A stretch of 64,000 bases of DNA, from assembly GCA_037576195.1 (NCBI GenBank), contig CM075102.1, forward strand, positions 15,868,745 to 15,932,744, written 5' to 3'. The stretch comes from Phytoseiulus persimilis. Taxonomy: Eukaryota; Arthropoda; Arachnida; Mesostigmata; Phytoseiidae. Positions within the stretch are counted from its first letter, which is position 1. Each line of letters starts with the position of its first letter. This document shows positions 33,210 to 62,646 of the stretch, piece after piece. The position numbers and the translations under genes are program-made. The notes under the pieces were generated by a model. That model worked only from the letters and a program-made list of their open reading frames with translations. It ran no database searches and was not told the DNA's origin.

Positions 33210-36200
33210 ATGGGACCTCCAATTTCAGTTGGGGTAGGCTTGTGCCTCCTCTTCATCGTCGGAGGATCTTTTGCTGGTAAGTAGCTGGAACCGTGCAACT
33301 GTGTGCAAGCGAGTTGTGTGCGACTTGGATTACGACCATGGTTTCTCCACTCCTTCAGGTCCTCTCCTGACAAAGGATGAGCCCGAGTGTTTCAAGGGAT
33401 TGCCTGTCGGCAAAACCTTCGTGTATCAGTACGCAGGAGTTAGCAAAATTGAGAACGATGACGTGACCCAGGAAGTGAATTTCTCGGCCGACGTGGTCGT
33501 TTCGGTTCCTCGAGAATGTGTCCTCGGCATCCAGCTGAGGAACGTGGTATCGCCTCACGAGAAGTTCGTGCATACCCTCCAGAACGACATCATCGAGGTA
33601 AGGAACCCGGTCTCCGCTCAGTTTGACCCTCACGACACGTCACCGTTGTCTTTCCGGCTACTTGCTTTGCCTGGTACCGGAACCGAGAGAAATTTCTCGC
33701 GCTGAGAACGATCTCGCGAAAATTTCCGATTCGAAAAAGGACGCCGAGACCGACTCGAATGCACGATCAACAGCCATCTCTGTCCCGGCGCATCCATGAC
33801 TAACTGACGCTGTTCATCAACTCCACAGGTCCGCATGGATAAAGGTGTCATCAAAGGAATCAAGCACAACCCCGACGAGCCCGTATGGGCCCTGAACGTG
33901 AAGCGAGCTATTGTTTCGATGCTTCAAACGCCGTTGGACGCCCGCGAAGGTCAAGTCGAGACCAACGAAAAGGATGTCCTCGGTATCTGCAAAACGACCT
34001 ACGTTCCGATCGAGGAGTCGGGAGGCGACGTCATCATCGGCAAATCGAAGGCCCTCTTGTCGTGCGAAGCCCGAACTCAGAGCACTCGAAGCATTTTCTT
34101 CACGCCCTACGATGCACCCCTCTCGGTGAGTCCGTGATTAACGTGCATTTCGTTCACGGCTTTTTAGCGATCGACGTTCGACCGACCAGGGACCGTGATT
34201 CTGTTCAGAACCACGATGCTCGATCAGACCTGATTTCTGAGAGCTTACTGGGGAGCCACGCGCTCGATCGGATGGATGGGATTACCTTCCGAACAGACCC
34301 GTTCCCTGAATCTCAGGCGCTTGTTCTCTGTGGGCCTCTTGAGGAAACTCGAAGACATCTTCGACTAACGACGCTAAATGTTTACTCGTCCATGCCGCTT
34401 TCGACCGGATCAAGCGACGACCGTTTCGCTGTTGCACGCCGCCGCCGTCGTCGACCATCGAGCGCGACGACGGTAGCGCAAATAATCAGCACGGCCGCAA
34501 CGGAGATCGTGGTGATGATAAAAGAGAACGACAACTGCCTGATGACTCAATAGCTAGGATAGGGAGAAACCGATGTCAGAGCATCGCTGTCATTCCTCGT
34601 CTTCTCCCGATTCTCCTCGCTCACTGAGACAGGAAGTCAGCCATTTGCACTCTCACGAGCTCATGAAAGACTTTTTCCTTTCCTGAAAGGCAGCGAGTTG
34701 ACTCGCAACCGACCCGCGGCCAACCCACATTCAATTCGAAGTCGACCCTGCACGTTCGTGTTTTTCTCCCCTTGTTCGCGACTCAGTAGCGCATAGCCTC
34801 ACAGGAAGCAAGACGCATTTGGTGCATTCTTTTTTTCAACTTCCACTCGGAGACTATCGCTCCGTTCCCCTGTCCGCTCACTCGCTCTTCGGTATCGACC
34901 CGATTTGAAGTTTTTCGTTCCGTTCCTAAATCACAAGGCCTCGATGCGATGAATAGTTTTCGCCGAGGGAGTCCGTTCCCTCCCACTGCTCCCGAAAGCG
35001 TCGCCTCAAGGAACATCCCAGGAGTCAATTTAATCCGCGTCGCTAAGCAGCGTTCATGGATCGCGAAGCTGCGATGCCACCGGAAAAAGGAGGGCGGCGG
35101 GCTGGTTCGCGCAGAAACTCCAGTTTCCGCGCGCTCGCCGCACGGCCAGAAATAGTCACGATTATCTCACCGCTCCCGGAGTCTCCCCGCTGTCTGTCAA
35201 GTGTCGGGACCGCGAGTACGTCAGCCCGATTGATTCAAGATCGCGGTCTATCCGATGCTTGCAACTTGACTCTTGGACTGCGCGGCGCCCTGAGACCGGC
35301 TTGTTGACTGGCGAGAAAGATAAACAGGAGAGTCCGAGTTACATCTTCAAGAGGATTTCAAGAGAGAAACTCGAGACGAGATCGAATCAGACTGTAGATA
35401 ACCGGTAGGGTCTAGAGCGCGAATCGGTATGGACGGATGTGGATTCGCTGATAACTTTCGGAAACGGCGGCAGGTTCCAGCACGTTGATTCCCGAAGTTT
35501 CGAGGAAGTCGGTCGATCGATCGATGCTGGACGGCGCATCGACCAGTAAACGATGAAGAATCGAGCGCCTCTGTGAATTATAGATGATCGTCTTCCTCCT
35601 CGTCGACGGCTTATTGGCGCGGATCACGCCTCGCCTCCATAGCCGGCCGGCTGGAGAGATCGTTTTTTTCTTTCTCGCGCCGAGGGATTACACTCGCATC
35701 GACGTTTTATCGGCGGATGAACGGCTCGTCTACTTAATAGACAGCATGCGTAAACGATGCCCAAATAACGGGGGTGATTTCGTAGGCGTGGGCGAACGCC
35801 TATGCAAACGACGCACTCCGTCCAGCCGGTCGGCTACGAGTTCGTGAGTTCTGCACTCTTCCACATGAGTCGTTCGTTCTAAGAGATGCCGTCTCTGTTC
35901 ACAGGACATCCGCACGACCCCACTCGCTGCCGGAGTCTACAACTGCCAGCATACCATCAACAAGGCCACCGGAGTCATCAAGAAGGCCTCCTGCCAACAG
36001 AAGGAGAAACTTCTCCTCTCCCAGCAGGCTTCTGCCACTCCCGGAGTCATTTCTCTCGTGACCTCCGAAACGTCCCTCGAGCTCCTGCGCGAGGAGGATG
36101 GAGCGCAGAACGTCCGATCTGCCACTTACCGGAGCTCGTGCCTCGTTTTCGATCACGATTTCGAGCACGAACACTCCCGAGAATCTCTCGTTGCCGCCAC

Positions 36201-39200
36201 CGACCGCTACTGCGATTCGATGAAACCCGACGTCCGCCCTGAGTCCGGCAAACTCTTCGGAGACCTGATCAAGGCGATGCGCTCCGCTTCGCAGGCCGAA
36301 ATCTCAAATGTTTACAGCTCGCTGGACAACAAGCCCTGCGACACCAAGAAGCTGAAGTCCGCCTTCATGGACGTCCTCGGCATGGCTGGAACCACCGGAT
36401 CCGTCGAAATGATCGCCAAGTTCATCCAGAACGGCGAGCACAAGGAGCACCACCAGAAATGGCTCAAGTCGCTGGCCTACCTCGCGAACCCCACCCACGA
36501 GATGGTTTCCGCGATGATCCCGGCCGTGCAGGCGGCTGACGCCAAGTCTGCAAAGTCGATCCTCTTGCCCGTCTCCGCGATGGCGAACACCTTCTGCAAG
36601 CTGCAATACGACGAATGCGACCAGGTCGCTGCCATCAGGCAACTCCTGTCCGTTCTCGTCAAGAAACTCGAGAACGATTGCTCCGGCGATCGGGAAGTTG
36701 TCGTCGCCACCTTGAAAGCCCTCGGCAACTTGGGCGTCAGCGGAGGCTACCACAACAAGATCATGAAGTGCATGAACGACAAACCCACAGACATCCGCAC
36801 CTACACTCTCAGAGCTTTCCGTAAGGTTTGCGACAGCGAAGTCACCCAGCAGATGCTGAGTCTCTACGCCGACCAGAGCGAGGACGTCGAAGTGAGAATC
36901 GGCGCCTACCTGAACGCCATGCGTTGCGCTGATTCCGACACGATGGCCAGGATCGTCAGCGTCTACGAGACCGAGAAGGTTGTCCAAGGTACGCTGAGTT
37001 TCCTCTTCCGTCAAACAAACCCCTCCCGCCATGGTATCACCGACCGAGTGTCAAGCTTCGCTGGGGGAAATATCTCGTGACTGGATTCAGTTCTAATAGA
37101 TATCTCCTCATTCTAGTCGGATCTTTCGTGTACTCTCACATGAGAGTCATCCACGAGTCGGAATGCCCTCTCAAGGCTGAGCTCAAGCGTCTTCTCGCAT
37201 CGTTCCCTGTCTCCGCTAAGTTCTCCAGCGATCCGAGCAAATTCTCTCAGAATTTCGAGTACTCGAAGTTCCTGGACGCGATCAACTTCGGTGGAGTCGC
37301 CGATGCTTCCGTTGTGTTCAGCCCGAAATCCTTCCTCCCGCGGTCGGCTAGCCTCAATCTGTCCCTGGATCTCTTCTCCCAACAAATCAACCTTCTCGAG
37401 GTAAGTTCCATCCGGGCTCTCTCGACACGGAGAAGCTTCTCTCGCAATGCCGTCCCGAGTCGACGCCAGGGGCTAATCAGCGAGAAATCCCATTCCAGGT
37501 CGGAGGCCGTGCCGAAGGTCTTGAGAAGATCGTCGAGCAATTCCTCGGACGCAGCGGTCCTCGTCGCACGCGACGGGCCACCAAAGAGGACACCGACGTG
37601 GAACGATTCGACAGCGAGTTCAAGAACGAAATCGCTACCGGCGAGAAAATGTCCTTCTACGTGAACGTTTTCGGCAACGAAATCGACTTCGTCGAGTACA
37701 ACTCGCTCCGGGAGCTCACGAGCGAGCTCCTCACCTCCGCCATCAAAGTAGCCTCCCTCCACCCGTCCAATTTCCTGAATAACCTCGTCCTCGAAGGTGA
37801 GATCGACGTCGTCAAAAACGCGCTGCTGGTCGACAACACCGTCAGCACCGCAACGATCTCGGGTCTCGGCCTGGTCCTGGACATGCGCGCAGTTTCGAAC
37901 GTCGCCCTCAAGGCTTCCGCCCCGATGGCCACCGAGACCGGGGTCATGAAGGCTTCTCTCGCTCCCAGCGCCGTCGTCCAGGTCGACGGATCTCTGACGC
38001 TCAGCGCCGGAGTTTTCCGTCACGGTGCCCGCTTCACCTCCACCATCCACACGTCATCGATCGTCGACGTCGAAGTCACCCGACGTGAGGGCGAGTTCAA
38101 GTTCCGATTCAACACCCCCCGCGACAAGCTCGAGATCCTCAACGCCAAGTCCGAAGTCTACGCGATCCAGGGCGACTACGAGACCCCGATCACGGCCAAG
38201 GAGGTCCGCAACCTCGACGGATGCACGATCCAGCTGCCCGAAATCCTCGGAATGTCGGCTTGCATCTCAGGCACCGTGCCCAAGCCCTGGTACATGGCGG
38301 GACGCGGATTCGCCCGGCCCTACAACTACGCCCTCACCCTCGAGAAGACCGACACGACGATGGAAGGCATCGAGTTCACCGTTCTGAGCTCCCCGAGCAG
38401 CCTCAGCGTGGTCCTCGACACCCCGGGGGCCACCGTCGATCGTCGCAGGGAGATCCACTTCAAGAACACGAACTACAGCTACACCGTCCGGGGCCAGTGG
38501 CCGCAGAAGTCGTTCTACTTCGGAGTAACTTCCGACACCGAGGACTTCGTCGTCTTCAAGACCGTCGACAGGAAGAGCCAGAAGGAGACCGAGTACGCCG
38601 TCCGGGTCAAAAACGGCCTCGGCAGCATTTTCATCAGCCCCGAACTCCGGGTCGAGTTCGTGTGCCCCCATCTGCGGGAACCTCTCACGGTGGACATCAA
38701 GAGCGCAGCTGCCAAGACCGAGATCTTGAGCAACTATCCTAAATCCAATCCTCTCAACCTCACCTACGTTTTCGACAGCAGGAGTCTCAACATGACCGTC
38801 TCCGCCGGCGACTTCGAGGCGAGCAGCAGGTTCACCAACAGCTTCGACCCGTCGAACTGGCACACGATTCTCCACACCACCTACAGACTCGGCCAGCAGA
38901 AGACGCAGAAGTTCCACTACGAGTTCAAAATCAAGAGCGAACAGCTCGAGAACGGACGGCACAGGTCAGGAGTTTTCACTTGGACCTCCACCTGCCATCC
39001 CCAGTACAACCACAAGATCGCTTTCGACGCTCAGTGCCAGGGCGACAACCGGAAACACAAGATCCAGGCCTGGTGGGGCGAGAAGTTCACCGATGAGGAC
39101 AAGACCATCCGCATCGCTCTCGACTCGAAGAAGAAGGGAACTTTCGGGTACGGCAGCATGACGACCATCCAGATCCGCAGCCAGGTCTACTCGCCGGCGT

Positions 39201-42200
39201 GGGGTCTCAACTTCGATGCCAATTTCGACAACAAGATCGACCTCGAAAGGACGCCCCGCATCACCTCGGAGCTGTTCGTCGCGTCGGACAAGAAGACTCT
39301 GCTCAAGTTTGACTACACCTTCGACCGCCACAGCTCGAAGACGATCACCAGAGCCTCTCTGATCGCCCCGCACACCTCGCTCAAGTTCTCCGACGACTCC
39401 GAAGAGCTCACCAAGGGCAAATACAAGGGAACCGCTGATCTGGAGTGGGGCTTCGAGGGAAAGAAGCTCTCTGTCGACTACACCTGCGAAGTTCTCCAGG
39501 ACGGAAACCACGACATCAAGCTGAACATCCGCGCTCCCAACATGAAGCCGATCCAACACCACCACCTCGTGCGTATGGCTCGTGACGTTGAACTCAAGAC
39601 CGAAACTCTCATCGACGGGAAGGAGTACCTCGTCTTCGAGATCAAGAGGCAGGACAAGGACGTCGCGTTCAACTTCATCGGACAGAGACTCCAGGTCAAG
39701 TACTCCCGAAGCGTCAAGGACAAGGCGCTCGATGTCAAGCTCGATGTCCAGAGCAAGATCATCTACACCCGACCCATCAGCCTCGTCATTCACAAAGACT
39801 CGCCCGGAAGTGAGTATTCGTCGGTCGAGTCTGCCCAGAGTGCTGTCGCGCTGTGTATTCGAGTTATTCCGCCCCGTCCAGCGAGCTAATCCGTTTCCTC
39901 GTTTCCAGAGAAATCTCACGAGCTGAGCGTCAACTTCATGTGGGACGCCGTTGCCAACCCCGGCAAGAAGCTGACCATCGACATGAAAACCGATCGCGAA
40001 GACGGCGTCAAGACCCACGCCAAGGTCACGGTCGCCCAGTTCATCGACTTCGAGTACAAGGGTTCTTACGTGAAAGGTTTCTTCAAGGGCCCGAACCGCG
40101 CCGAATTCCGTCTGAGCGGAGCTAACATGGAGGCTCGCGAGCTCATCGTCGGCCACTCGCACAGCACTCCCAAGGGAGACGCTTACCTCCAGTACTCGCG
40201 GGGTGGCAAGTCCCTGGTCGATGCCAAGGCCGCACACGAATTCACCAGCGAGAAGAGGCTCTACACCTTCACGATGACTGGAGTCGTCAACAGGAAGCTG
40301 ACGGTCACCCGCGACCTGGTTTCTCGAACGCTGACGATCGATCTCGACCGCGACGGGAAGGTCTACCACATTTTCATCGACAGGAAGACCGATTACAGCA
40401 AGGGAGTCATCGATTGCAAGATCACGATGAACCTGCCCTACGAAAGCTACAAGTCGCAGCAGCTGACCGTCAAGGGAACTCTCGCCGACGGTAAAGTCGA
40501 CCTCACAGCCCACTATCTGTCCGGCAGGAACAAGAACTACCACTTCACGGTGAAGGGTTCTCGACCGGAGAAAATGGTCCTCGACGTCGAGATCGAGATC
40601 AAGTCCGACAACGAGAAGCTCAAAGAGGGCAAGGCTCATCTGAAGTACAACTTGGTACACGCGACAGACCGGGAGTTCCACCTAACCGTGGATCGCGAAG
40701 CCACACGCGTTTTCACTTTGGAAGTCCACCTGAAGAAGGGAGACACCTCGAAGGAAATAAGCTTCAAGCTCGCCTCCGAGTCCACTCCCTCCTACGAGGG
40801 CAGCATGAAGATGGACGGAACCCCTGACAAGTTCACCAGCAAGACTCTGATCAACAAGAACGGAGCCGTGTACTACACCGCCGAGAACGAATTCGAGAAC
40901 ACCGGAAGCAAGATGCACTACAAAGGAAAGTACCACGGCGGGCTCCTCGGTGGCGATACCGAGGTAGCCTTCGAGAAGAACTCCCTTCCCGGAGATAACC
41001 ACAGAACGTACAAACTGGACATCAAGCGCAACGACCGCGAGTTGAAGGCCGATGCTGAAACCCAGCGCGCTGACGGCTTCAAGATCACTTCAGTGAACGT
41101 TTGCAGAACCCCGCTCGACTCGAACTGCGTGAGCGTCACCGTGAAGAGGAACATCGTGAAGTTCAACTTCTTGCGCAACAACGCCATGAACGTCAAGATT
41201 CACCGCAAACCAGACGTCACCCTCGAGGTCGACAGCCAGGTTCATGTTCCCGACGATGTTCACAAGGCCCATGTGCGTCTTGTTGGCAACGTCAACGAGT
41301 TCAAACTCGGTTTCGACTACCACTGCGACCACTCCACCGCGCAAGTGTCCGAGCAGACCCTCCGGGGCTACGTTGTGGACAGGGAACTCCTCGCCACTCG
41401 CCGCCTTGAACAGACCGATAAAATCGTCGACCTCAAGTACACCGCCGCTCTCGATGCCAAGAGCGATGAGAAACTCGAATTCACCTACAGAGGAGACCAC
41501 GTGGACAAAGGTTACAACAGCGTTGCCAAGCTCAGCCATCCCAAGATGCGCACGGTAAGTCAGGAGCTCTGCTCTTCTGAAGACTTCTGTTCATCGTTCT
41601 CAACAATTTCGAAGCTTTCAAAATGACCGTCTAAAAACAATCCCCTGTTTCCCCACAGCCCGTCGTCTTGAAATCCAAGGTCAGCAGAGGGAAGGATCCG
41701 AACTCCCTGTACCGCCTCGAGACTGAACTCGAGTTCTTCAAACCGGAAGACACGATCTTCATGCACTACGAACGCAGAATCAATGACGAGACCGCCCGGA
41801 ACAGGTCCGTGCACCTCCATGTCCACAAGGCCGACAAAACCGACTACGATTTCCAGTTGACCATGTACCGAAGCGAAGATCTCCAGAAGCCTGTCTTCGC
41901 CGGCTACTACTGGTCGTACATCACCGCCAAGAAGGAGAATCGCGTGGGAACGCTGCGCGCGTACCTCGGAGAGGATCTCAAGGGCTCGATCGAGTTCACG
42001 TCTCCCTACCAGGACGACTTCAAGATCACCGGTGAAGCGAAGGTGATCAACGACGACGGCGACAAGGAAGCCGAGATCGTGCATTTGAAGAACACAGTCG
42101 AGACCAAGGGAAAGATCTCCTACAACCTCCAAAAGCTCTACATGAGGGCTGTTGTCCTCAACGCCGATGGCTCGACAGGTCGAGAGCTCGAGGTGGACGG

Positions 42201-45200
42201 AGGCCGCAAGGAGAAAGGACGCTACAAGCTTGTTCTGTCCAGTTTCCCCGAGGGCAAGAAAACCACGGATCTCGGAATCGAACACACCCGAACCAGCGAA
42301 ACTGTGAGTGCTCAGAGGGACGGGTTTCGCTGCTGCAGAACTTCTTCTCGTTACGCCCATTTCGGAATGAGGATTTGGGGGAGAGGAGGGCGTTTTTGAC
42401 GTCGAGGGGCTTCGCTCTGAAATATCTAAGAACACCATGTCGTCCTTTGCAGTCCTTCCATAGCCGAGTGTTCGCTCCGCCTGAGTACCTCAAGCGCGTC
42501 GCCGAACGCGCCAAGGAAATCGCTGCCTCGCGAGCCGGAAAGTACCCAATCGAAGACATGAAGGAAGAAATCAAAACTCGCTCCGAAGCCCTCACTTTCC
42601 GACTGAGGAAGACCTTCGAAGACGTTCCCGAGTACCTCCTCACGAAGATTTCGCAGATCTTCGTCGAAATCCAAGGATCCCTGACTCGGCTGATCAACAA
42701 CACTACGGTCGGACAACGACTCAAGGCGAAAATCGAGGCCAACCGCGAGCAGATCGCTCAGCTGATGCAGAGATTCCTCGAGTCTGTGAGGAAATGCTGC
42801 CCCGCTCTGGCTGAACGACTTGAAAAGGTCATGGAGAAGTACCTCCCGAAACGCACCCGTCGTTCTGTTGATGAGGAGAAGTTGAACCTCGTCGAGTACG
42901 TCGTCGAGCGCCTCGAAATGTTCCAGGAGTGGCTCAGTGAGCTTCCTGCGGTCCGTTTCGTTGCCAGTGTCTACGACAAGATCATCGATGGCATCACGAG
43001 CATCAGCGACCGCATGTGCAGAATGGCCGCCTCGATCAAGAGGAAGTTCCTCGAGATCCCGGATATCAAGCAGATCGCCGAGACCTGGGCGGAGCTTTAC
43101 GATTCTGTGAGTATGAGTCCACTGATGACTGTTCCTTGAATTTCGCGTGAGAACCACAAATCTCGACTCTTCGTCGCTGAGTACATATATGAGCGGAATC
43201 TATGCTCATGCGAGTTTCATTGAGGTCGAAAGGTAGAAGCGCTCAAGTCTTAGAAAACATGGCAGTGTCTGAGGGAAGCGTTTGGAATTTCAGAGCTCTG
43301 TGGGACACTTGCTGCCAAGGCAAGCTCTCGCGAAATACGTTCTCGAGCCTCGTCTCAATCGATACACTCCTCGAGTGCCAGTCCTGGAAATCGACCGCAA
43401 GGCCGGCCGATTCGTCGCCGATGTCGACGTTCCCGTGGACGCTTCGAAACTGGTTCAATACTGGGCATACGGCGTCGAACCGAAAGAACATCAGTCCACC
43501 TACGAGACGCACGACTTTAGAACGACGATGCACTTGGTCCGCCAAAGTCTGTACAAGGTCTACGACGGCCAGGCCTCCGTTATCGACGGCAAGCACTTCA
43601 TCACCTTCGACGGCAAACACTTCTCGGCTGCGGGATCCTGCTCCTACCTCTTGGCTCGAGACTTTGTCAACGGTACTTTCACCCTCATCCTGAAGAACGG
43701 CGACGTGCCATCGTACGTACTCCAGTTCGGGAACAAGTTCTTCGAGATCAGCAGCGCGGCTTCGAGCTTGAACCGAGTCACCCTCAACGGAGAGCCTCTC
43801 AGCACCCCGATGATGAAAGACGGAATCTTCGTCCTGAAAACCCACAGCATGGTCAGGATAACAAACGGCGACATCAAGTTCGTTCTGAACACCGACACCG
43901 GAGTCGCAACCATCGAGACTCGCATATGGTTCTTCGGCAGGACCGCCGGTCTGCTCGGCAACTACAACCGAGAGCCGAGTGACGATTTCAAGACCCCCAC
44001 TGGAGTCGTTGCCACCAGCGAGAAGGCTTTCTTGAGGTCCTGGGAAACCGAGACCTGTGAACCGAGTGAGCCTGTCCTGTACCGCGAGAGGAGCGAGGAC
44101 GTCGAAGCCGTCGAGTTCTGCGACAAGATCTTCAGGAACGAGCGTTCCTCGTTGTCGCTCGGCTTCGCTCTGCGCAGCGTCGACCAATACCACGACCTGT
44201 GTCTCCGCGCCGCCCAATCCGTTGAGAACAACGTTCACACGAGTTGCCAAGTTGCTTATGTTTACCTTATGGACATCGAGCGATACGCCAACCTCCCAGG
44301 CTACCTAGGAGCTCGGCTGCCCGACGAATGCCGTAAGTATAATTTCCGAGTTTATTAAATTCAACCAACACTGCGTTTCCACTGAATACATCTCTCGCAA
44401 CATGTGTTAATATTCTCAATCAAAACTGTGTGTGTCAATAAAGAAATTTCGTTTCTGTACTCTGTTGTTGTCTTCAGTACGCCAGCTGAACGGTCGACAC
44501 GTCGACGATACGCGCCGTTGTCGTTTGTAATCCGCATTCGGCCAAGTTTTACCCTCAATTCCACTGATCCAAACAAATCAATGATAGGGGGATATTTAGT
44601 AACGCAGACAGGTAACTTGCAGTGACCTGCGAGTTGCCGCTCGCGCCCGAAGCTACGATCGGCAATCGAACTTACGGACATTTCGAAACCGGTGAGAGTG
44701 CAGACGTGATCTTCGCGGTACAGGACAACGAATGTAACGCGAACTCCAGCGGCAACGTAAATGCGCTCGCCAGATCTCTTGACAAAGAGCTCTCAGCCAA
44801 GAACGTCCGGCACAATAGGTACCTTCCATGTTCACATTGCACGTTCCTGTCGTCGCTACTTCCTTTCGAGCTCGCATGTCGCGACTCCCGACCTCTTCTT
44901 CTGGGAGGGTTCGCGGGAATGAATCTTCTCTCTGCTTGGCATTGAAGGTTACGATGCTAATTTGAGGGGAGTTGCTTTCCGATCGGCCGAATGTCCAAAT
45001 TAGCGATTCAAGCGCAAAGTCAAATCTCTCGAAGACGACATAGAGCGTCTGTGCATGAGCATGAGGGAAGTACTTTCTCTGGGATGATCCTGAAGATCAC
45101 CAGCATGGTGCGGCTGCGGAATGCGGGACGGCAAAGCTCATCTTGGTTGAGCGCACCAAAAACAAATTGAATATTTCAGGTTCGGACTGATCGGCTTCGG

Positions 45201-45888
45201 TGGCAACGGAGAGCTGTACCAGGCGCACATGCGTACCGCAAGAGGCCGTGTTCTTTTCCCGGCACGGGACATGCCTTTAGCGTTAGAGAATATGGATATG
45301 ACGTCGACTGATCGGGCAGACATTTTTCTAGCGGTCCACGCGGCCATCACTCAGTATCGATTCCGACCGACAGCCGCAAAAATACTCGTCGTTTTCACCT
45401 GCCATCGATGTGCGGTACTGGATGAAACCGCTCCGGATTACGTCGATCTGCGAACAGCTCTCTTGAACCGCGGCATCGTTCTCCATCTCGTAAGTCGAGA
45501 CAGCGCGAAATCACGGGGAAGCCGCTCGAAGAAAGACCCGCTCGTACTCGGGCTCGACACCGACGCAGCCTACACCGCGAGGGACGTCAACCACAACCAA
45601 CTCATCGGGTCGTCTGAACTCAAATCGCAAATCAGAGCACCGAAAGATGTTTGTGTCCTGATGGCTCTTCAATCGTCCGGCAGCTGGTTTACGACCCCAA
45701 CTCAGAAGCACGAGCAGAGAGCTTGGAAGATCATTCTAGCCAAGAGAATAGCTCAAGATATCTCACAACAAGAGCAGTGTCTAACATGCGACTGCCAGGG
45801 TTTGGAAACATTCAGCACGCGAACCGTGTGCAGACCCTGCAGACCGCAAAGATCAGCTTACGTTGATTACGACGACGACGACGGTTAA
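33210..45888 (+). CDS. apolpp-like: Apolipophorin precursor (large lipid-transfer lipoprotein), 12 exons
   Basis: The exons are 33210-33276, 33359-33597, 33829-34125, 35905-36988, 37117-37400, 37499-39809, 39909-41554, 41659-42303, 42453-43106, 43294-44332, 44623-44818 and 45180-45888. All phases match, giving 9171 nt or 3056 residues, close to insect apolipophorins (about 3300). The protein carries lipids in haemolymph. Residues 1-22 are a signal peptide. About 25-650 is the vitellogenin-N/MTP lipid-transfer module (ECFKGLPVGK near the start, then helical repeats). RRTRR at 679-683 is the furin-type site expected between apoLp-II and apoLp-I. There follows a long beta-rich lipid-binding stretch to about 2200. 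A VWD domain lies at about 2500-2700 (GKHFITFDGKHF, GLLGNYN). The C-terminus from about 2782 is vWA-like, with its metal-site DxSxS not conserved, ending in an acidic tail. Length, domain order and the first cleavage site separate it from vitellogenin. Codon use is strongly C/G-ending, as in highly expressed genes. No canonical AATAAA was seen after the stop. Confidence 0.95.
37562..37576 (+). other. Furin-type cleavage site 1 (RRTRR, residues 679-683)
   Basis: A basic RRTRR motif followed by A-T-K-E-D lies early in exon 6. Position and sequence fit the known proprotein-convertase cleavage that splits insect apolipophorin precursors into apoLp-II (N-terminal) and apoLp-I. Confidence 0.8.
42849..42863 (+). 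other. Second furin-type site (KRTRR, residues 2324-2328)
   Basis: In exon 9 the same R-T-R-R core is followed by S-V-D-E-E. Cleavage would release a C-terminal fragment of about 728 residues carrying the VWD and vWA-like domains. Insect apolipophorins are known for a single cleavage, so this site is unusual. Whether it is accessible is inference. Confidence 0.55.
43588..44050 (+). other. von Willebrand factor type D domain of apolipophorin
   Basis: Within exon 10 the motif GKHFITFDGKHFSAAGSCSY and, about 120 residues on, GRTAGLLGNYN mark a VWD domain (about residues 2508-2660). VWD domains occur near the C-terminus of apolipophorins and vitellogenins. Confidence 0.85.
44437..44442 (+). promoter_or_regulatory. 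Intronic poly(A) signal AATAAA in apolipophorin intron 10
   Basis: If the exon 10 donor at 44333 is not used, the frame runs eight codons further to a stop at 44356-44358. A canonical AATAAA follows 79 nt later, then a GT/T-rich stretch at about 44456-44475. This is a credible alternative 3' end giving a 2763-residue form that lacks the vWA-like C-terminus. Confidence 0.5.
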
Positions 45889-46657: not shown

Positions 46658-49594
46658 CTAAGACGAGAGCTCCAGATGTGGCCCGCGGTAGGATGCCATG
46701 GTCCCCATAACCGCGGCCGCGTTGCCTCGCTGTACATCGATTGACAGACGCTGCAAAAGGAACTCCCGCGCCCGCTTACAACCTGTTGCTTCTTCGATCA
46801 TCTGGCCGACCGTGTTCAGGAGCGTTCTCGTCTGCGGCCCGGGTCCGCCGAGCGTCTCGAAGGCCAGCGGTGCAACCAAGTACGCAGCGGCCAGTTCGCT
46901 GTACTTTTGGAGTTTTTTGGCCTCAGCCTTTGCGCTTGCAGCTCCCGGGGTGATGCTGCCGGCGTCGACATATGATGGGGCTAGAGTGTCGACAACCGTT
47001 GCATCCCATACGAGGGCTTTTCCCCTCTCGAATGGTATTAGCGTCATCCCGTCCGGTCGCCTCCCGTCGTTCCGGCACATTCCCTGCGGCTCTCTCAGGT
47101 TTGGCACCTGGGCGCTTCGGAGCGCGCGGCTGAATGTTTCGTTGATTTGAGAGTGGCGAGACCACCTCCCAGCGCTCATCCTGCAGCAGAGACCGTGCAC
47201 GCCGCTGGCGTCCACCGGCTGCCCGCACGAGCAGGTGTGGGGCGCGACGATAGTAGCTCCTAGCCGGAGACCCGCGCAGATGCGCACCGTGTTGTCATCG
47301 AGCAGGGTGCCGAGACTGGCCGACGGAAGACAATGAAGCCACTTGCTGGCACCGGGACTGTTGACTGCCAAGAATCTTGCTCTATCCGTGTTCGAGGTGA
47401 GGCTGTTCATGAGAGCGTCAGACTGTTCCAAGCATAGAACTGTGTCCCACTCTCTCTGCACATGCTTCTTCTCCGGGGATGTCCTCCCGTGGGAGCAGAA
47501 GTGGTCGACTAGAGCAGATTGGATTGAGGAGAAGGAACGAAAAACCTCCTCCCCGAGCAATTCTTTGACAATGTTCTCAGTAGCGTGTACTGAGGACAGA
47601 ATGCACGGCGCAGCGAGGTCGCGGACTGAGCGGACTCCTAGACCGCCCAGTCGAACGGGAAGTCTTGCCTGCTGTAGCTGCGAGTTGTTGAGATCGATGT
47701 TGAGAAGCTTCACAAGGGCTTCGTCGTACATACGGTCAATTCGCTGGAGCACCTCGCCCTCGCCCCGAACATCGGCACAACGCAACACGTGAAGGAATCG
47801 GGCGCTCGATAATGAGGACCTGAGGAGGAAGAGGGCCTCATGCGACCTGATCAGGGCCAGTCTGGCCACCATGTGCCGGATCTTGGCCAGTTTCCCCTCA
47901 AGAGCGGGCGATGTGGCCTCCGTGAAAATTGGGGCCCCAAGAAGCTCGAGAGCATTCCTCTGGACTACACGGCAGTCCGGCAGGAGACTGCGGACACTGA
48001 GAACGGCCCGCTCGCGGTCCCGCTCCTCCAGGAGGTCCACGAAGAGCTCGCATTTCTCCGTGTTCAAGCGGAGTCCACTCACCCCCTCGAAGTCGAGTAC
48101 CCTGCGGATATCAGACAGCACGCAGTCCAAGGTGCCAGCCAGTGTGCCATCGTCAAGGTACCACAGGTTCAGAGGTGAAGCAAGTGAGTCTACCAGGTCC
48201 TTGGTGCCGAGGCAAAAGGTGGCTGCGCCGAGAGGGTCGCCTTGCTGAACTCCAGTGGCCGAGAGAATCTCCGCTCCGTCGTAGAACAGGTGAGAGGGCG
48301 TCGCGTATGAGCTGTGAACCATGTGATGTAGATCGGGAACGAGCTCGGCTGTTCTCTGGATCATGTAATCACGGCGGAGTGTGTTGAAAGCGTTGGCAAA
48401 GTCGAGCTTGACCAGCACTGGACTGTTCGGAGCGCTTTCGAGAAAGGCGCGGCACGAGTGTACTGAGGCCTCGAGTCCGCCAGGGCAGCCGACTCCGAGC
48501 TGTCGCGGCCCAAGAGCTGAGCGGATCGTGTTCAGGTTCTGCTTGGCAGCGATCTTGGCGGCAAGGCGGCGGAGAGTGAGTGAACAAGCGATCGGCCGAA
48601 GAGACCCGTCCTTCTTCCGCAGAGCCAGGAGCGTGGCCCCGAAGACGACAGGGCGGATGCCCTCCGGAACTCTCCCTCCGCGCAGGAGGTCGACGAAGCG
48701 GGCGATGCTAGAGGTGAGTCGCGTTGCGGACTCGCCCAGCGCGGCCGCCGTGAGGTCCTTCAAGTGGCGCGGGCGAAGCCCATCAGGGCCCGCTGATGAA
48801 CTGTTCGGGAAGGAAGCTATTCCTGCCACGATGTCCTCGGCTGCTGTTCGGCCCTGCCAAGGCTCCGCCGGGCCGGGTGCATAAGAGACGTCGGCGGGCT
48901 CATCAGGATGTCTTTCCCTCATGCGACGAGTGGAGTCTGCGGATCTGGGCGCGAAGCAGTCCTGGGACAACAGGGCCATCACAGCTCCCGACACGTCTCC
49001 CTCCGCCAGCTTCCTCGAGCTACGCTGGGCAGCCAGCTCGTCCGTGGAAGGCAGATCCCTGGGTCGCCTGCGCGGACCGAGCGTGTACTCGAAACGAGCT
49101 CCGGCTCTGAATGCGGCGATGTTGCGGCGGATAATCTTCGGCCATGAATCGCCAAGCGCCTTCCTGGGGGGCATCTGGAGCACAACCGGGGCGAAAGATA
49201 ATAGGCTTCTCCAAGAGTCGTCGTCGTTCAGAACGCACACGGAGTGCAGCACGCCGCGGAGCTCGTCGGCGACGACCTGTCGGACGGCTTTGGGAATGAT
49301 GTTAACGATTCTGATTCTATCGCGGCACAAAAGCAGGTCGTCTCGTAAGCTAGAATGGGCGGGAGAATCCTCCCTCGACACATTTCCTTCGGGATGAGTG
49401 GGACCTTGTCCCGTTCGTAGGCGCGATTCGCGCTTCTCCACGGGATGTTTGTGACCAGTGTGAATTTCGAGGCCTCTCTTCGAAGGGAACGATCGATCGC
49501 ACCAAGAGCACCTGTGCGGCGATTGAGTTGACGATGAGCGCGGATCAACAGTGGTCTCAGCTTGGGATGGGGGTAGCGGGGGAAGACTAGACAT
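46658..49594 (-). CDS. Retrotransposon ORF2: reverse transcriptase with restriction-like endonuclease
   Basis: A 978-residue intact ORF. The N-terminus has a C2H2 zinc finger (C29, C32, H45, H50), as in RLE-type elements that use it for target DNA binding. The central reverse transcriptase has the KLDFANAFNT motif, GVQQGDPLG and the catalytic YLDD at 479-482. The C-terminus has a CCHC-like cluster (CSCG, HGLCC), then RPDG with D848 and VWDATVV with D864, and a downstream KLQKY. This is the layout of the PD-(D/E)XK restriction-like endonuclease of R2/R4/NeSL-type LINEs, which primes reverse transcription at the cut target. No APE domain is present. The start ATG overlaps the ORF1 stop (ATGTCTAG). 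The exact clade cannot be fixed by eye. Confidence 0.88.
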   Translation of the reverse strand: MSSLPPLPPSQAETTVDPRSSSTQSPHRCSWCDRSFPSKRGLEIHTGHKHPVEKRESRLRTGQGPTHPEGNVSREDSPAHSSLRDDLLLCRDRIRIVNIIPKAVRQVVADELRGVLHSVCVLNDDDSWRSLLSFAPVVLQMPPRKALGDSWPKIIRRNIAAFRAGARFEYTLGPRRRPRDLPSTDELAAQRSSRKLAEGDVSGAVMALLSQDCFAPRSADSTRRMRERHPDEPADVSYAPGPAEPWQGRTAAEDIVAGIASFPNSSSAGPDGLRPRHLKDLTAAALGESATRLTSSIARFVDLLRGGRVPEGIRPVVFGATLLALRKKDGSLRPIACSLTLRRLAAKIAAKQNLNTIRSALGPRQLGVGCPGGLEASVHSCRAFLESAPNSPVLVKLDFANAFNTLRRDYMIQRTAELVPDLHHMVHSSYATPSHLFYDGAEILSATGVQQGDPLGAATFCLGTKDLVDSLASPLNLWYLDDGTLAGTLDCVLSDIRRVLDFEGVSGLRLNTEKCELFVDLLEERDRERAVLSVRSLLPDCRVVQRNALELLGAPIFTEATSPALEGKLAKIRHMVARLALIRSHEALFLLRSSLSSARFLHVLRCADVRGEGEVLQRIDRMYDEALVKLLNIDLNNSQLQQARLPVRLGGLGVRSVRDLAAPCILSSVHATENIVKELLGEEVFRSFSSIQSALVDHFCSHGRTSPEKKHVQREWDTVLCLEQSDALMNSLTSNTDRARFLAVNSPGASKWLHCLPSASLGTLLDDNTVRICAGLRLGATIVAPHTCSCGQPVDASGVHGLCCRMSAGRWSRHSQINETFSRALRSAQVPNLREPQGMCRNDGRRPDGMTLIPFERGKALVWDATVVDTLAPSYVDAGSITPGAASAKAEAKKLQKYSELAAAYLVAPLAFETLGGPGPQTRTLLNTVGQMIEEATGCKRAREFLLQRLSIDVQRGNAAAVMGTMASYRGPHLELSS

Positions 49595-51137
49595 GATGAG
49601 ACGTGGAAGGAGCAGAGCTCGTCGTTGATTTCTTTATGAAATCGATGACCGCGTCTGACATGAGAATATCAACTACCTGAGCCAAGGCCGGGTGGTCGCT
49701 GAAGAGCGGCTCGACGAGAGGCTTGACAAAGGCCCAGATCTTCTTGATGAGTGCGAGGACATCGGGAAGGCCAGAAACCAGGACCGGCCCGCTCGACGGT
49801 GCCGGAGGCTTCGGCCTCCTTGCGGCAGCAACGGCCGAGCGTGACCGTTTCGGCTGAGTCGGCGTGAGGGGGATTCGACAGATAAGCTCTTCACCCTTAT
49901 CAGTTATCTTCACAATCTTCCGGTACGCGGGTGCGCCCAAGACCGCAGCGAAGGACGGCCTCTCAGGGGCGTCGGGGCTTGCTTCGACGGCACGAATTGG
50001 CGCCTCCACCGTAGCCGCGACTTCTTCAATGCGAGCGTGAGGAAACGATGCTGCGATACGATTCGTGTGGCGCTCGCTGGCTGCTTTCGCGTAGGTTGCG
50101 TAGACAGGGCAGCTGCGGTGGTTGGCTGCGTGAGACCCGCGGCAGTTGATGCAGCGAGCCGTTCCCTCACATGCCCACATTTCGTGACCAGGCTCCCCAC
50201 ATTTCCGGCATCGGGGTGTGCCCTGCTTCGGACAGTTCGCCGCTCGATGACCGAATTTGCAGCAGACCAGGCACTGCAAAGGAGCGGCCGGGCACAAGTT
50301 GACACGGTAGATTTCGAATGCTATCGTGACGACCTCCGGCAGCCGCTCGCTGAAGAGCAACCGGACGCGCTGCGAAGGTCTCTCTGCCCTCGTGAACTGA
50401 CCGTTCGACTCAATCTTGGTTGCGTACTTCTCGCGGACGACCTTTTCCACGCCCTGGGAGAGCAGGGCCTCGAGCAGGTCGGCCTCCCCAAACATAGGGT
50501 GAACTCCGCTGATTCTGCCCCACAACTGCATTGCTGCAGGAGTTGAGACGCGGACCGGGATCCCCAAGATGCTGTCCATTCTCTTGATCTTGTCTATGTC
50601 GTCTAGGTTCGGAACCTTGACAGATATGGAGCCTTTAGGCAGTACCCGCGCGTGTGCTCCCGCCGCCTTCGATCGGACTTCTTCGTATACTTTCAGAAGA
50701 TTGCATGCGAGAAAGGTGGCGCCGTCGCCGACTGGCTCCAACTCCACCTCAAAACCCTGCGGGCCGCGAAGGCCTGTAGAAAGCTTGGAGCTCTCTCCGG
50801 CTCTTCTCTGGCGCTCCACGTCCTTCTCCGCCCGCAAAATCGCTCGCGACTCCGCGGTGGAGATCGTACTCCATGGACCGCCCGCGTCGTGCTGCACGCA
50901 CATGTCCTCCTCGGCGTCGGAAACATCGCCTTCGGGATCACAAGCGTCGTCGGCGAGGCCGCTCATGCCTCTCAGCTGATGAAAGTCGCGGAAACGCTGT
51001 CTCTGTTCTCTCAGGATATCGGCCGTCTCCTCCTTGCGGTTCTTGCTGTCTCGCTTGAGAGAATCTCTTGCTGTGGACTTCTTTCTGGTCGAGGAAGATG
51101 AGCCCTCTCGGAGGCCAGAAGCGTTGGCGCTAAACAC
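49587..51137 (-). CDS. Retrotransposon ORF1: Gag-like zinc-knuckle protein
   Basis: A 516-residue intact ORF. It has a basic N-terminus and an acidic linker, then a region resembling the RNA-binding part of LINE Gag proteins. Next come two CX2CX4HX4C knuckles from about residue 289 (CLVCCKFGH, CRKCGEPGH) and a third variant CX2CX3HX6C (CINCRGSH). The C-terminus is Pro/Ser-rich with a hydrophobic helix. It probably coats the element RNA. Its stop overlaps the ORF2 start by 8 bases, implying coupled reinitiation or ribosome shunting. Such a Gag is more usual in APE-type LINEs, so its pairing with an RLE-type ORF2 is notable. Confidence 0.85.
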   Translation of the reverse strand: MFSANASGLREGSSSSTRKKSTARDSLKRDSKNRKEETADILREQRQRFRDFHQLRGMSGLADDACDPEGDVSDAEEDMCVQHDAGGPWSTISTAESRAILRAEKDVERQRRAGESSKLSTGLRGPQGFEVELEPVGDGATFLACNLLKVYEEVRSKAAGAHARVLPKGSISVKVPNLDDIDKIKRMDSILGIPVRVSTPAAMQLWGRISGVHPMFGEADLLEALLSQGVEKVVREKYATKIESNGQFTRAERPSQRVRLLFSERLPEVVTIAFEIYRVNLCPAAPLQCLVCCKFGHRAANCPKQGTPRCRKCGEPGHEMWACEGTARCINCRGSHAANHRSCPVYATYAKAASERHTNRIAASFPHARIEEVAATVEAPIRAVEASPDAPERPSFAAVLGAPAYRKIVKITDKGEELICRIPLTPTQPKRSRSAVAAARRPKPPAPSSGPVLVSGLPDVLALIKKIWAFVKPLVEPLFSDHPALAQVVDILMSDAVIDFIKKSTTSSAPSTSHHV

Positions 51138-51589
51138 GAAAACTGGTGTTTCGTTGCACTGTGGCTCCGAGGCCGCAGACGTCTCGTCGGTTGCCGTGCC
51201 TTGCGACGTCGTGGAAGGCGGCGGAATGATGTCAGGAGTGTGCGCTGAGTGATCCAGATCAAGATGGGTAGGGTGATAGCGGTGATAAGGGCGATAGCTT
51301 CCAGTAGTAGCGCAGAAACTAGGAGCGATAGGTCAGAGCACACAGCACGTAGACGGGCACGCGCACGTATCGATAATGGTTCTGGTTATAGTTATTTTCC
51401 TATCTTCCAACATGATCTTCACTAGCGCAGCATGAGCCTACGTCAACTCGGGCATCCCTTTGGCTCTCCAAAGGATTCTCGGGGTTTTGAATCAGTTGAA
51501 AGTCCACATGAGTCGGGCCTTTAGTTGTTGCAACTCCCCGGAAAGCATCTCTCAACGGTCAGCTCAACGGGAACGGCAGAGCACATAGA
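51138..51589. other. Probable 5' leader of the retrotransposon and spacer
   Basis: No gene. Directly upstream (on minus) of the Gag ORF, so some of it is likely the retrotransposon 5' UTR. The boundary with the adjoining gag relic is unclear. Confidence 0.35.
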
Positions 51590-55510: not shown

Positions 55511-56919
55511 TGTATGTCCTCTATTCCCCCTGTCTAGAGAGAATATTTTTTCGGAAAATTCTGTTTGTGCGACACTCTGTTACCCGACACCCTAATTCAA
55601 CATGATGATCCACATAGTTTGACACACAGGGTGTCCTGCGAGTGAATATGGAAATGTTGGTGGCGGTGTTCATCATAGTATCAATACGGGTTGCAGATTC
55701 CATGACGGCACTGTAAGGAACTTCCAACTGCCCCATGATTCGGCCACCGCCCCTGCTGGACAAGTAGTGATCGAGCTTGAGTTGAGCTCCCACAGAGAGA
55801 GCCTTCGGAGTCGGTTCGAGGTAGTCATTCGAGTCTCTATCGTTTTCGGTTTCCTCCATTGCAGGAAGACGCACTCAAGCTGTCACCGAGCCCAGGCAGC
55901 TCTTCAGCGGGGGAGGGCATTTGCGAAACGCGACAGCGGGTTCCGGCCGTGGTTCTTCCTCTTCAATGTTCAAACCTCGGATGTCCAACGTTAACTGACA
56001 TTCGGTTTAACCACATAAAAAGACGAAGAAAAAACATTCACATCGGCATTTCCGAGACCGCACTTGACAACATAGCACTTCATCCACTAAGATTCATTCA
56101 CGTTCCGAAGTTTACGTGCATAGTTTGCACATACTCAGCTTCCCGAAAAACTCGAGTTCGCTTGAAGGTTCTCAAAGAACGTGGTCAGCCCAGTCGAGTC
56201 GCGAAACAGCTCCGATTTAGCTTCCGAGGAAAGTTTCATGTCGGCTCTGAGCTACGTAAAGGTTGGTAGTCCACTACTTGGACGAGAATACGATGAGAAA
56301 TAGCACGAGAAATAGGAAAGATTCAGAGAACAACGATTCAACCAATAGGTATCTCAGATTTTCACGTCCACGAGCCCAGTCGGAGCGAACCGAACAGCTC
56401 CTTGTTTCGCGTTCGCTTGTGATTTGATCAGATCGCTTATCGAATAACAGACGGCGCCGGAAGAGCTCCGAACCCGAGCATCAAATTCCATGGAAAACTT
56501 GAATTCACCCGCCAAAGGCGACAGTGAGAATTCGCCGCCATCATACCAACGCCGTTTAGCGCGGAGGAAGTAGCCTTGCTTATGTGTTTGTTAGTCTCCG
56601 TGACGAAACTGTGTCTGCGACGGCGTCCGTTTACGCCGGAGTTTGAGAACTCATTTTGAGGGAAGATCCTAGTTGTCCGTGGAGTTTCCTGATCTGTGAA
56701 TCTGCGTCGGAGGAGCGGCTTCCTGGAAACGAGACCAACCGCTCTCGTTCCGAATGGGTTTCCCCCCTGATTCCAAGGAATAAGAATCTTTGCGGTCCGC
56801 AACATTGTGACCGATACGCGATCCCCAACGAGCTCATCGAGTCCAGGGATTTCTTGGCGTTCTCGGTTGATACGTGCGCGTCTGGCTACGGAGTATAACA
56901 ATGCGAAATCCTTTTCAAG
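55511..56919. other. Spacer upstream of the Tudor gene
   Basis: No coding sequence is supported. It should hold the promoter, and possibly a 5' exon, of the Tudor gene. The bases before the ATG at 56920 (ccttttcaag) read like a splice acceptor. Confidence 0.4.
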
Positions 56920-59280
56920 ATGACCGCGATCAACAGAGTTCCCAACCCGAGCTTCGAGGAGAAGGAGACCGTGCAAGTCTTGTCCGAAGATTCCGGCACC
57001 ATCGGGGCCAGATTGACTCGGATCGATCAGAGCCATCGTCTGTTTTTGGAGTCGGCGATCAGCAACTATGTGAACAACCTTCGCGAAATTCCGCGATTAT
57101 TTCCACAGAGGGGTGATTACGTCTTGGCGCGTTCCGAGTTCTCTGAGCCTAAGTGGTGTAGGGCTCTCGTCTTGAGCGTGGCGCTCCCGCTCGTTCAGGT
57201 CGATCAGGTTGACTACGGATTGCTCGAGGACGTTCGCTCTACAGATATCATCGAGCTGCCGCCGGTGCTGTCGGTGGTTCCCGCGTTTTCGGTGCGGCTC
57301 CAAGTAGATGTGAGTCAGTTTGTGGTAGCGGGCAAGTACGAGGTCTACATAGGAAACTACGTTGATGAGTTGCAAAGAACGGTGGAAGCGTTCTCGGTCC
57401 CGGACGAGGCGCCCGAGAGCTCCGGGGAGGAGGGTGCAACTGTCGTGATCCCGGAAGACATCGGAGAAGTGGAGAACGGAGTCGTTCGAGGAATCTCTCC
57501 CTACAGCGTCACTGCCCCAACCTATGGGATACAGCATCGAGAAGGTTTCGAGATGATGGCTGAACAGCTCGCTCAGCTGGAGTTGCAGCCGAAGCTTGTG
57601 GTGCGGAAAGGTGATTTCGTCGTGGTGCCCTTCGATTCTTATTTTTGTCGCGCTCTGGTCATTGAGAGGGAAAGCGAATCGGCCAGGGTTTTCCACGTGG
57701 ATTTCGGCTCCTGGGATACAGTGAGCTTGTCGAACGTGTTCTGTATCCCAAGCGGACCGGTATCCGAAACGCCACAACAGTCGTTCCAATGCATCACTGA
57801 CGACGGGACTCCCCTCGAAGAAAACCGAGGGTACGAATTCGCGGTGAAATCCACACTCAACGACCACGGCTACCCGGTGCACATTTGCAAGGTATTGCTG
57901 CTCGGGCAGGAACTCCCCCCGGTGTACAAAGTCACAGACTTACCCGCTCCTTGTCTGCAAGAGGTCGAAACTGTGCAGCTCGTAGACAAGCCCTATCTGT
58001 GTGCGGGATCTTACGGAGCTGTCGTCCAGGAAAACAATGCCTCGCTTGCCGCCATAGAGCAGCTGTTGGAAGAATCCTTCGGTGACCCGGACTTCCTCAA
58101 CGAGCCACAGGTTGGCGATCTGGTGATTTCGTACATCGATGGGAGGTTCTACCGGAGCGTTGTCTGTGAGATATCCAACGCCGAAATCTGCGTTTTCCAA
58201 ATCGATGTCGGCAACTTCAGGAACTGCAGCATCACCGTTGTCATGACTCTTCCCGAGAAACTTCTCGCGTTCCCTCCCGTCGCCCTGCTATGCCTCCTTG
58301 ACGAGAACCAGGAGGCTATGGAGTTGATGACAACTTTCCAGGCGCGGAACTTCGCGCACCACAGCAACGTGTACGGCATAAACGTCTACACTTTTGAGAC
58401 CGTCGGTGCGAACTCCGATGCTTCGCCCGACCTCGGATACGCTACTCCCGATGAGATTACGTTATCTGAGGGGTACGAGTACTCCCCGGAAACAGTCCAA
58501 GAGACTCCGAAGTGCCGCAAAATTGTGCCTGAGCAGGAACTGGTCCCATCCGACGCGGTTGAAGTAAACTCCCTAGATTTTGGCGACCCGACAGCGGTCG
58601 GAAATCGCTCCCGAGCGACGACTCCGAGCAGCAAGGGTTCCGAAGCGGCGCCGAGGAAGCTACAGCATCGAACGTTCCCCCGCGCCCCGTCTCGATGGCA
58701 TACAATCATCGTTTTCGGATGTGAAGATAATCGACGTATCCACCTGCTCGGATGAACTCGTGGTTCTGTCAGTCGCTTTTGTGGACCGACAAGAACTGCT
58801 CGAGGAAGCTCTGAGTTTCATCGATCCCGATACTTTGAAACCTCTCTACTCATCCGACCTGCCGAGTAAGAACCCTGGTGTGATCAAAACCGGAGGAGCC
58901 TGGGTTCGAGTCGTGGTTAAAGAGAGACCCAGTCCGAGTTCCTACGTCGTGCAACTGGTCGATTACGGTGAGTTCAAGTTCGTGCTTGTTCTTCGCTTAG
59001 AATTCGACACAGAAGCAACCTTCATCCATAGACTTGACTTCAATTGGACAAATTTCGTTTTGCAGGCATTCAGACAACTTGCAGCGTTGGTGAGGTGTTC
59101 TGCTGTCCGCCAGAGTACGTTCCCATCGAGATGTGCGCGATGGATTATACTTTACCGAAGAGCAGTCCGAGCACTGAGACACACGAGCATCTCATCGGAC
59201 AGATAGTCGCGCTAGGGCATTCAATGTCGAACACGTCCGCTTTATATTCGCGGGAGACAGGAGAGTCTATAATTTTATGA
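56920..59280 (+). CDS. Multi-Tudor-domain protein (germline/piRNA-type), one frame break
   Basis: Tudor domains bind methyl-arginine tails of Piwi proteins. Here at least four are seen. The cores are near residues 63-105 (RGDYVLAR, WCRALVL, VDQVDYG), 229-275 (KGDFVVVPF, FCRALVIE, FHVDFGSWD), 397-445 (VGDLVISYIDGRFYRSVV, FQIDVGNF), and after the break (WVRVVVKE, YVVQLVDYG). The first frame runs 56920-58755. The homology continues in another frame from about 58640 to 58967, then across a gtgagt...gcag intron (58968-59065) to a last exon ending at 59280. Summed, the exons are one base over a multiple of three, so there is a 1-base shift between about 58600 and 58690 or a very short intron. AATAAA follows the stop by 20 nt. 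The ATG at 56920 follows a good acceptor, so 5' exons may exist. Confidence 0.85.
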
Positions 59281-61639: not shown

Positions 61640-62646
61640 ATGGGTCGAGGCAAATCTTTGAATGAAACTGAAAAAACCGTGATTTCGTGCCTTAGGGATA
61701 GAACTATGACGATCGGTGAAACTTCTGAGGCTGTAAGGCGGAGCAGGAAAGTTGTCATGAATTTTCTGGAGGATCTCGATGGTAACGGAAGAAAATAAGC
61801 ACAGAACGACCGCCGTAAATCACCGAGAGAGAGAAGAGTGCTTCTCCGAGTTGCCTCGAACAGTTCTTTGCCCGCCAGACTGATTGCAAAGGCTGCCGGC
61901 GTTACGGCTAGTGCCCGGAACGTGAGAAGAGTCCTCCGTAACGCACCCCACTTGCAATTGAAGAAGTTGAGAAAATGTCCGCGCCCGACACAAGCACACA
62001 AGAAAAACAGCGACTCGATTTCGCTAGGCGGCACATCCGATGGAGTGGCGAATGGTACGCTGTGTTGTTCTCAGTGGAGGAAAAATTCACTCTTGACGGT
62101 CCTGACGGTTACTCGAGTTATTTCCATGACTTAAGAAAAGAAGAGAGATGCTTCTACAAACGGCAAATGGGCGGCGGTAGCGTTATGGTCTGGGGCGCGA
62201 TCGTCTACAACGAGAAGACTGAGATTGTGTTCATTTCTGGAGAGATGACGGGGGCGAGCTACTTGGAACTGATCAGCGAGCACATTCAGAAGTTCAGAGA
62301 ACAAGAATCTGCGGACGGAGAAGCACCCTCATTCATTTTTCAACAAGATAACGCAGCCGTCCATACTGCCAGATGTGTGAAAGAGTACTTCTGGAGCTTG
62401 AATGTCGCCTGTATGGAGTGGCCAGCGAGGTCTCCAGGCCTGCACATCATCGACAACGTCTGGGGTCAACTCGCAAGAGCGGTTTACAGAGACAGCCATC
62501 ACTTTTTGACGGTTGAGGAGCTCGAAAATGTGGTCCAACAAGAATGGGCGGCAATTTCTCAAAATTATGTACAAACATTGTTCCGATCTCCCCCAAACAG
62601 GATGCTGGCGGTGGTGGAACACCAGGGCAATAGTACACATTACTGA
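61640..62646 (+). pseudogene. Tc1-like transposase, inactivated
   Basis: The N-terminal paired-like DNA-binding part starts at ATG 61640 (MGRGKSLNETEKT). A premature TAA sits at 61796-61798. The same frame resumes with RVLLRVASNSSLPARLI and VRRVLRNAPHL. A frame shift in an A-run near 61999-62005 moves the rest into another frame, ending at 62646. The catalytic core keeps only one residue of the DDE triad: the first Asp of FSDE is Val (62074-62076), the second is present in FQQDNAAVH (62347-62349), and the third Glu is Asp in IIDNVWG (62452-62454), 34 residues on. GGGSVMVWGA and the C-terminal STHY are conserved. Confidence 0.92.

Follow-up and report, generated by a model that had tools for sequence, protein, structure and literature searches.

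Within a 64,000-nucleotide stretch of the Phytoseiulus persimilis genome (the window), an independent 12-exon model of an apolipophorin-II/I precursor gene (Table 1) reproduced the 3056-residue product described earlier from the DNA letters alone (the sequence-only reading). All 11 introns are GT-AG in this model, and third-position GC ranges from 0.58 to 0.83 in exons 2–12 and is 0.45 in the short exon 1, whereas intron sequence as a whole has a GC of 0.52. Behind an N-terminus that looks signal-like by eye, Pfam searches located a Vitellogenin_N (LPD_N) domain (PF01347, residues 40–572, E 1.2e-63) and an open beta-sheet domain (DUF1943, Vit_open_b-sht, PF09172, residues 604–872, E 1.2e-46), followed by a VWD domain whose matches among PDB sequences are FCGBP, VWF and mucins. 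The best PDB sequence match of the precursor is apoB-100 (E 4.6e-28) and the next lipovitellin (E 5.1e-14), which on these E-values, rather than on a tree, puts it nearer to apoB than to vitellogenin. For DUF1081, a domain described as restricted to apoLp, apoB and apoCr (PMC1783640), there was no Pfam match in residues 684–1400 and exons 6 and 7 (E ≤10) or in residues 1–1500 (E ≤0.1), and the autocatalytic GDPH is absent from the precursor. On its domains and its apoB-100 match we read the gene, as had been proposed, as an apolipophorin-II/I of the APO family of LLTP. Insect apolipophorins-II/I (Locusta, Drosophila apoLpp and Anopheles Lp) are described with LPD_N, open beta-sheet and VWD in the same order as in the mite (PMC7360829, PMC3406001, PMC10786457, PMC1783640), and Bombyx apolipophorin likewise has a helical/coiled-coil segment near its VWD, the C-terminal part of apolipophorin-1 being given as coiled coil plus VWD (PMC7554946). 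The C-terminal end of the mite protein had also been called vWA-like, a putative label for residues ~2756–3056 that gains no support from sequence, since neither Pfam nor PDB sequences gave a match at E ≤10.

Table 1 Features of the apolipophorin gene (window positions) and the second APO-type gene (contig C3).
Feature	Position	Strand	Details
Apolipophorin-II/I precursor gene	33210..45888	+	12 coding exons; product of 3056 aa; model agrees with splice signals and is free of internal stops
Coding exons 1–6	33210-33276, 33359-33597, 33829-34125, 35905-36988, 37117-37400, 37499-39809	+
Coding exons 7–12	39909-41554, 41659-42303, 42453-43106, 43294-44332, 44623-44818, 45180-45888	+
Site 1, RRTRR 679–683	37562..37576	+	Expected apoLp-II/I furin site; RTRR 680–683 at 37565-37576
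Exon 9, residues 2192–2409 (218 aa)	42453..43106	+	Phase 0/0; amphipathic-helical domain, split by site 2
Cys 2306–Cys 2307	42795..42800	+	Upstream of the site 2 cut
Site 2, KRTRR 2324–2328, then SVDEE	42849..42863	+	Candidate second furin site; RTRR 2325–2328 at 42852-42863
Predicted third chain, residues 2329–3056	42864..45885	+	728 aa, 81.8 kDa; predicted from site 2; intron-split
Cys 2380	43017..43019	+	Downstream of the cut; a Cys in the second APO-type gene aligns with it
VWD domain, residues 2505–2646	43579..44004	+	Pfam E 1.6e-18; exon 10 alone E 3e-19
C-terminal region, ~residues 2756–3056	44623..45888	+	Exons 11–12; "vWA-like" in the sequence-only reading
Second APO-type gene (L037, L038, L039)	about C3:8.962-8.972 Mb, within C3:8961000-8972000		LPD_N end, open beta-sheet, RFKR

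A non-LTR-type retroelement lies directly downstream of the apolipophorin gene (window 46658–51332, − strand) and comprises two overlapping long ORFs. The first (581 aa) shows CCHC-like knuckles by eye and has no Pfam match; the second (991 aa) matches RVT_1 (E 2.8e-15), and a finger near its start and a Cys/His and PDG..D end suggest, again by eye, a restriction-like endonuclease; such a pairing with a Gag-like first ORF seems unusual. The + strand also carries a long ORF with three Tudor-domain stretches (56899–58755, E 3.4e-28) and a DDE_3 transposase ORF (61942–62646, E 3.5e-12) that we take to be Tc1/mariner-like. A 161-bp copy of window 45718–45878, in the last apolipophorin exon, occurs with 98.1% identity in L013 (C3:34475043–34475213), at about 1510–1670, near sequence that looks reverse-transcriptase-like by eye, and is read as a recently moved fragment.

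Only two RX[KR]R motifs occur in the 3056-residue precursor, and both are RTRR. The first follows LPD_N at the conserved apoLp-II/I junction, in line with its proposed role as the apoLp-II/I site, its position being judged from domain borders rather than from alignment to an insect protein. Insect apolipophorins and decapod apoCr are cut at this first place, with RTRR in Penaeus semisulcatus apoCr (PMC1783640), and an RX[KR]R after LPD_N is common to insect apolipophorin-II/I, which comes from a furin-cut precursor, and the mite. The second R-T-R-R core was likewise found where it had been placed, and the C-terminal remainder was recomputed at the same 728 residues; the distance from the cut to the VWD-bearing exon is 81 residues (exon 9 ends at 2409) instead of the 85 claimed, and that to the VWD domain 177. 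A second RX[KR]R before the VWD module sets the mite precursor apart from those of insects, for which one cut is described (PMC1783640, PMC3406001), as the sequence-only reading had it.

In a protein with 185 Arg and 229 Lys, two such motifs are statistically unsurprising. Composition shuffles of the precursor (10,000) yielded a mean of 1.52 RX[KR]R and at least two with P = 0.45, shuffled exon 9 alone contained one with P = 0.28, and five-residue windows with at least four basic residues numbered 2 against 4.6 expected (P(≤2) = 0.26). An identical pair of RX[KR]R tetrapeptides had P = 0.035 and, post hoc, two RTRR P = 0.001; for a DNA pattern fitted post hoc to site 2, the window held one occurrence where 0.15 would be expected. 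Elsewhere in the genome, six further LLTP regions held 6 RX[KR]R in the 19 listed ORFs of at least 180 aa against ~5.6 expected, a count in which some ORFs are not exons, two of the regions duplicate each other at 98.6% identity and one motif is an RFKR taken as real. As the motif count is at the level set by composition, the second motif alone proves nothing, and any significance must rest on position and conservation. We give some weight, short of even, to the reading that KRTRR 2324–2328 is a chance basic loop that stays uncut, leaving an ordinary two-chain lipophorin with an apoLp-I of 269 kDa, as would also fit the single insect cut.

Two convergent vitellogenin-type genes were also found in the genome (L034, L035; C2:13691949–13697018, +, and C2:13709102–13714180, −), 98.6% identical over 5582 bp, as was another pair at C2:16.59–16.60 Mb with 82.5% identity over 5757 bp.

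The position of the second motif speaks against a chance loop, as it presents a full RX[KR]R followed by Ser where a secreted protein is predicted to have a break between helices. At site 2, positions P1, P2 and P4 are Arg and P1' is Ser, with Leu-Pro before the motif and S-V-D-E-E after it, the latter reading by eye as a helix N-cap. Of six regions compared, exon 9 alone is strongly amphipathic, with amphipathic-helical 18-mers making up 21.8% of it and 0.4–5.5% of the five others. A low-confidence AlphaFold2 model of exon 9 from a two-row alignment (mean pLDDT 42, pTM 0.27), of which only the helix boundaries were used, has helices at 2277–2321 and 2330–2354 and coil at 2322–2329 (LPKRTRRS). 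It counts against a cut that the upstream flank is predicted to be helical, in place of the Gly/Ser/Pro tract found at site 1. Charge within exon 9 is +11 before the cut and −6 after it, and Cys 2306/2307 are possible partners of Cys 2380 across it. All 15 Pfam families listed for exon 9 scored below their cut-offs, led by CHASE6_C (E 0.0028) and IPK (E 0.01), with Apolipoprotein A1/A4/E third (E 0.014, 15.6 bits against a cut-off of 90) and, in fifth place, ApoLp-III (E 0.019); these apolipoprotein-like scores might be what any amphipathic helix would give. A search of the genome for an apoLp-III itself gave three matches, all below the cut-off (best E 0.12).

Members of the LDL-receptor family are bound by basic clusters in apoB and apoE, and lipoproteins are generally taken up via receptors. 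Site 2, a basic cluster with amphipathic helices on both sides, could by analogy be a receptor- or glycosaminoglycan-binding patch on the particle surface with no role as a protease site, which we consider improbable given the predicted break in place of a helix, the adjacent SVDEE and the exact convertase grammar; in addition, the PDB matches of exon 9 comprised four at chance level (E 0.43–2.2), none of them to apoB or another lipid-binding chain. Among the genes of the genome is a furin-type convertase, whose best PDB match is furin (E 3e-80); another locus with a P-domain looks PC2-like by eye. Cleavage at site 2 is plausible given its position in a predicted helix break of the amphipathic exon of a secreted protein and the presence of this furin-type enzyme.

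An internal comparison comes from the second APO-type gene, on contig C3. Its N-terminal part includes one ORF ending in RGRR, perhaps intronic, and RFKR stands at the place of site 1, as judged by eye from the flanking matches; DUF1081 reached 22.2 bits, short of the 25-bit cut-off. Neither its 2071-residue ORF nor its 210-residue last exon contains RX[KR]R. This helical last exon is preceded by a phase-0 intron, as is exon 9 of the apolipophorin, and AATAAA follows within ~45 bases of the stop codon. We take it as the homologue of exon 9 on its place and phase, on a VRFV..Y..I motif and a Cys shared after the cut position, and on a local score of 56 that was matched by 10 of 1000 shuffles, a control in which amphipathic helices of any two proteins would do well; overall identity is 20%. 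RTRRSVDEE is aligned with RVEKSIRNE, and the lack of the motif there favours an uncut site in the apolipophorin. None of the 13 VWD matches scored, the best candidates in the genome, provided a VWD tail at this gene. As the gene ends after its helical exon without VWD, the tail appears separable, and the helix-VWD tail looks optional in this family on the gene structures compared. The second gene is perhaps the arachnid counterpart of apoLTP or of an apoB-like protein.

A crustacean parallel of one shared precursor had been raised by the sequence-only reading; one precursor with three chains is indeed described (PMC8416765, PMC8545670), and the likeness is closer than was noted. The Scylla dLp/HDL-BGBP precursor (4831 residues) has sites predicted at 2990–2993 and 4096–4099, and a 3444-residue Portunus entry, matching Scylla 1387–4831 with 89% identity, has its second site at 2708–2712 (PMC8416765). 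Subtraction on these coordinates leaves a C-terminal remainder of 732 residues in both crabs against 728 in the mite, the two crab values not being independent in view of their 89% identity. In the same source the length of the crab C-terminal chain is printed as 739 residues, although its own coordinates (4831 − 4099) give the 732 used here. About 0.01 RX[KR]R would be expected within ±10 residues of the crab-site distance, a post hoc figure that assumes comparable tails, and this near-agreement in distance from the C-terminus is a further point against a chance loop. Peptides from all three chains are reported from Scylla haemolymph (PMC8416765), and crayfish dLp is described as formed by the N- and C-terminal chains, the latter an 80-kDa particle subunit (PMC8416765, PMC8545670). 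The decapod precursor thus resembles that of the mite in having two predicted sites, which would define three chains, with a C-terminal chain of ~80 kDa, a likeness that consists of motifs, cleavage in the mite being predicted. In contrast to the mite, where RTRR lies at 680–683 of 3056 residues, the first decapod site comes after ~3000 residues, with LPD_N kept on the ~3000-residue chain; the decapod middle chain is the beta-glucan-binding HDL protein (PMC8416765), and the precursor is reported without a VWD (PMC8545670), which the mite tail has. As the decapod precursor is described without VWD and has its first site elsewhere, homology of the mite and decapod tails is putative.

The salmon louse offers a different comparison, since LsLp1 and LsLp2 carry the LPD_N part and the VWD part on separate polypeptides, as in a three-chain mite scheme, but by way of two genes instead of two cuts, with predicted products of 75 and 120 kDa (LsLp1) and 37 and 208 kDa (LsLp2) (PMC8545670). 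Among relatives, pattern scans of genome and viral contigs, whose reach is close relatives, gave 22, 92, 9 and 52 stretches, none confirmed by tblastn. Our literature search brought up no chelicerate apolipophorin for which a C-terminal furin cut is reported, a weak negative in that subscription papers lay mostly outside its reach. Five N-terminal peptides of spider yolk proteins (PMC12028198), with uncertain residues taken as printed, were tried as evidence of cutting and rejected, as 129–443 of 500 shuffles fitted the precursor as well. Against the predicted new N-terminus a haemocyanin peptide ranked 45 of 3036 and the other four 665–2861, with no convincing fit.

For this animal we infer cutting at both sites, association of the chains and their function. 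A furin-type convertase would cut RRTRR 679–683 during secretion to release an apoLp-II of ~73 kDa, and the same enzyme would also cut KRTRR 2324–2328 in a predicted exposed break between two amphipathic helices, giving a 187-kDa middle chain that ends in helices and an 82-kDa C-terminal chain made up of helices, the VWD domain and a Cys-rich end. Whether the lipophorin has three chains through a cut at site 2 in the secretory pathway is, in our estimate, evenly balanced.

If site 2 is cut, the 82-kDa chain likely stays on the particle, held by helix packing, by opposite charge and perhaps by a bridge between Cys 2306/2307 and Cys 2380; as a third apolipoprotein it would then resemble the small subunit of crayfish dLp. 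The free, soluble fragment suggested by the sequence-only reading is less likely: its first 81 residues would be largely amphipathic-helical, with a charge of −6 facing +11, cysteines flank the cut, and the crayfish C-terminal chain is a particle subunit. The cut could also allow a module with the VWD domain to detach and act in clotting or immunity. Since a secreted protein with RX[KR]R meets furin first, we regard as improbable a later, conditional cut by another trypsin-like or convertase enzyme, in yolk, clot or wound, that truly releases the tail; such a cut would accord with the clotting and multimerization roles proposed for VWD domains of the superfamily (PMC1783640) and with reports of arachnid yolk proteins as many chains (PMC12028198). 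In an engineered mosquito lipophorin, a foreign antibody chain freed at a duplicated furin site was 10–20 times scarcer in haemolymph than the two apolipophorins (PMC10786457), so a released chain need not stay in circulation.

A broader hypothesis, which we hold to be doubtful, is that site 2 functions and shares its origin with the C-terminal furin site in decapod dLp/HDL-BGBP, and that the ancestral arthropod apolipophorin was three-chain with the helix-VWD tail as a separate subunit; insects would then have kept the first cut only, which in crustaceans changed its place, while the gene was split in copepods and the second arachnid gene dropped the tail. More narrowly, the three-chain scheme is already known from crustaceans, and the mite case is plausibly a variant with the second site before the VWD module. 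Few arachnid lipoproteins have been characterised, spider yolk lipoproteins being described in two species (PMC12028198). If site 2 is cut, the predicted new N-terminus, SVDEEKLN, would be a simple proteomics target, and the arachnid lipophorin particle would contain three apolipoproteins, one of them a detachable VWD subunit, linking the two-chain scheme of insects with the three-chain scheme of crustaceans.
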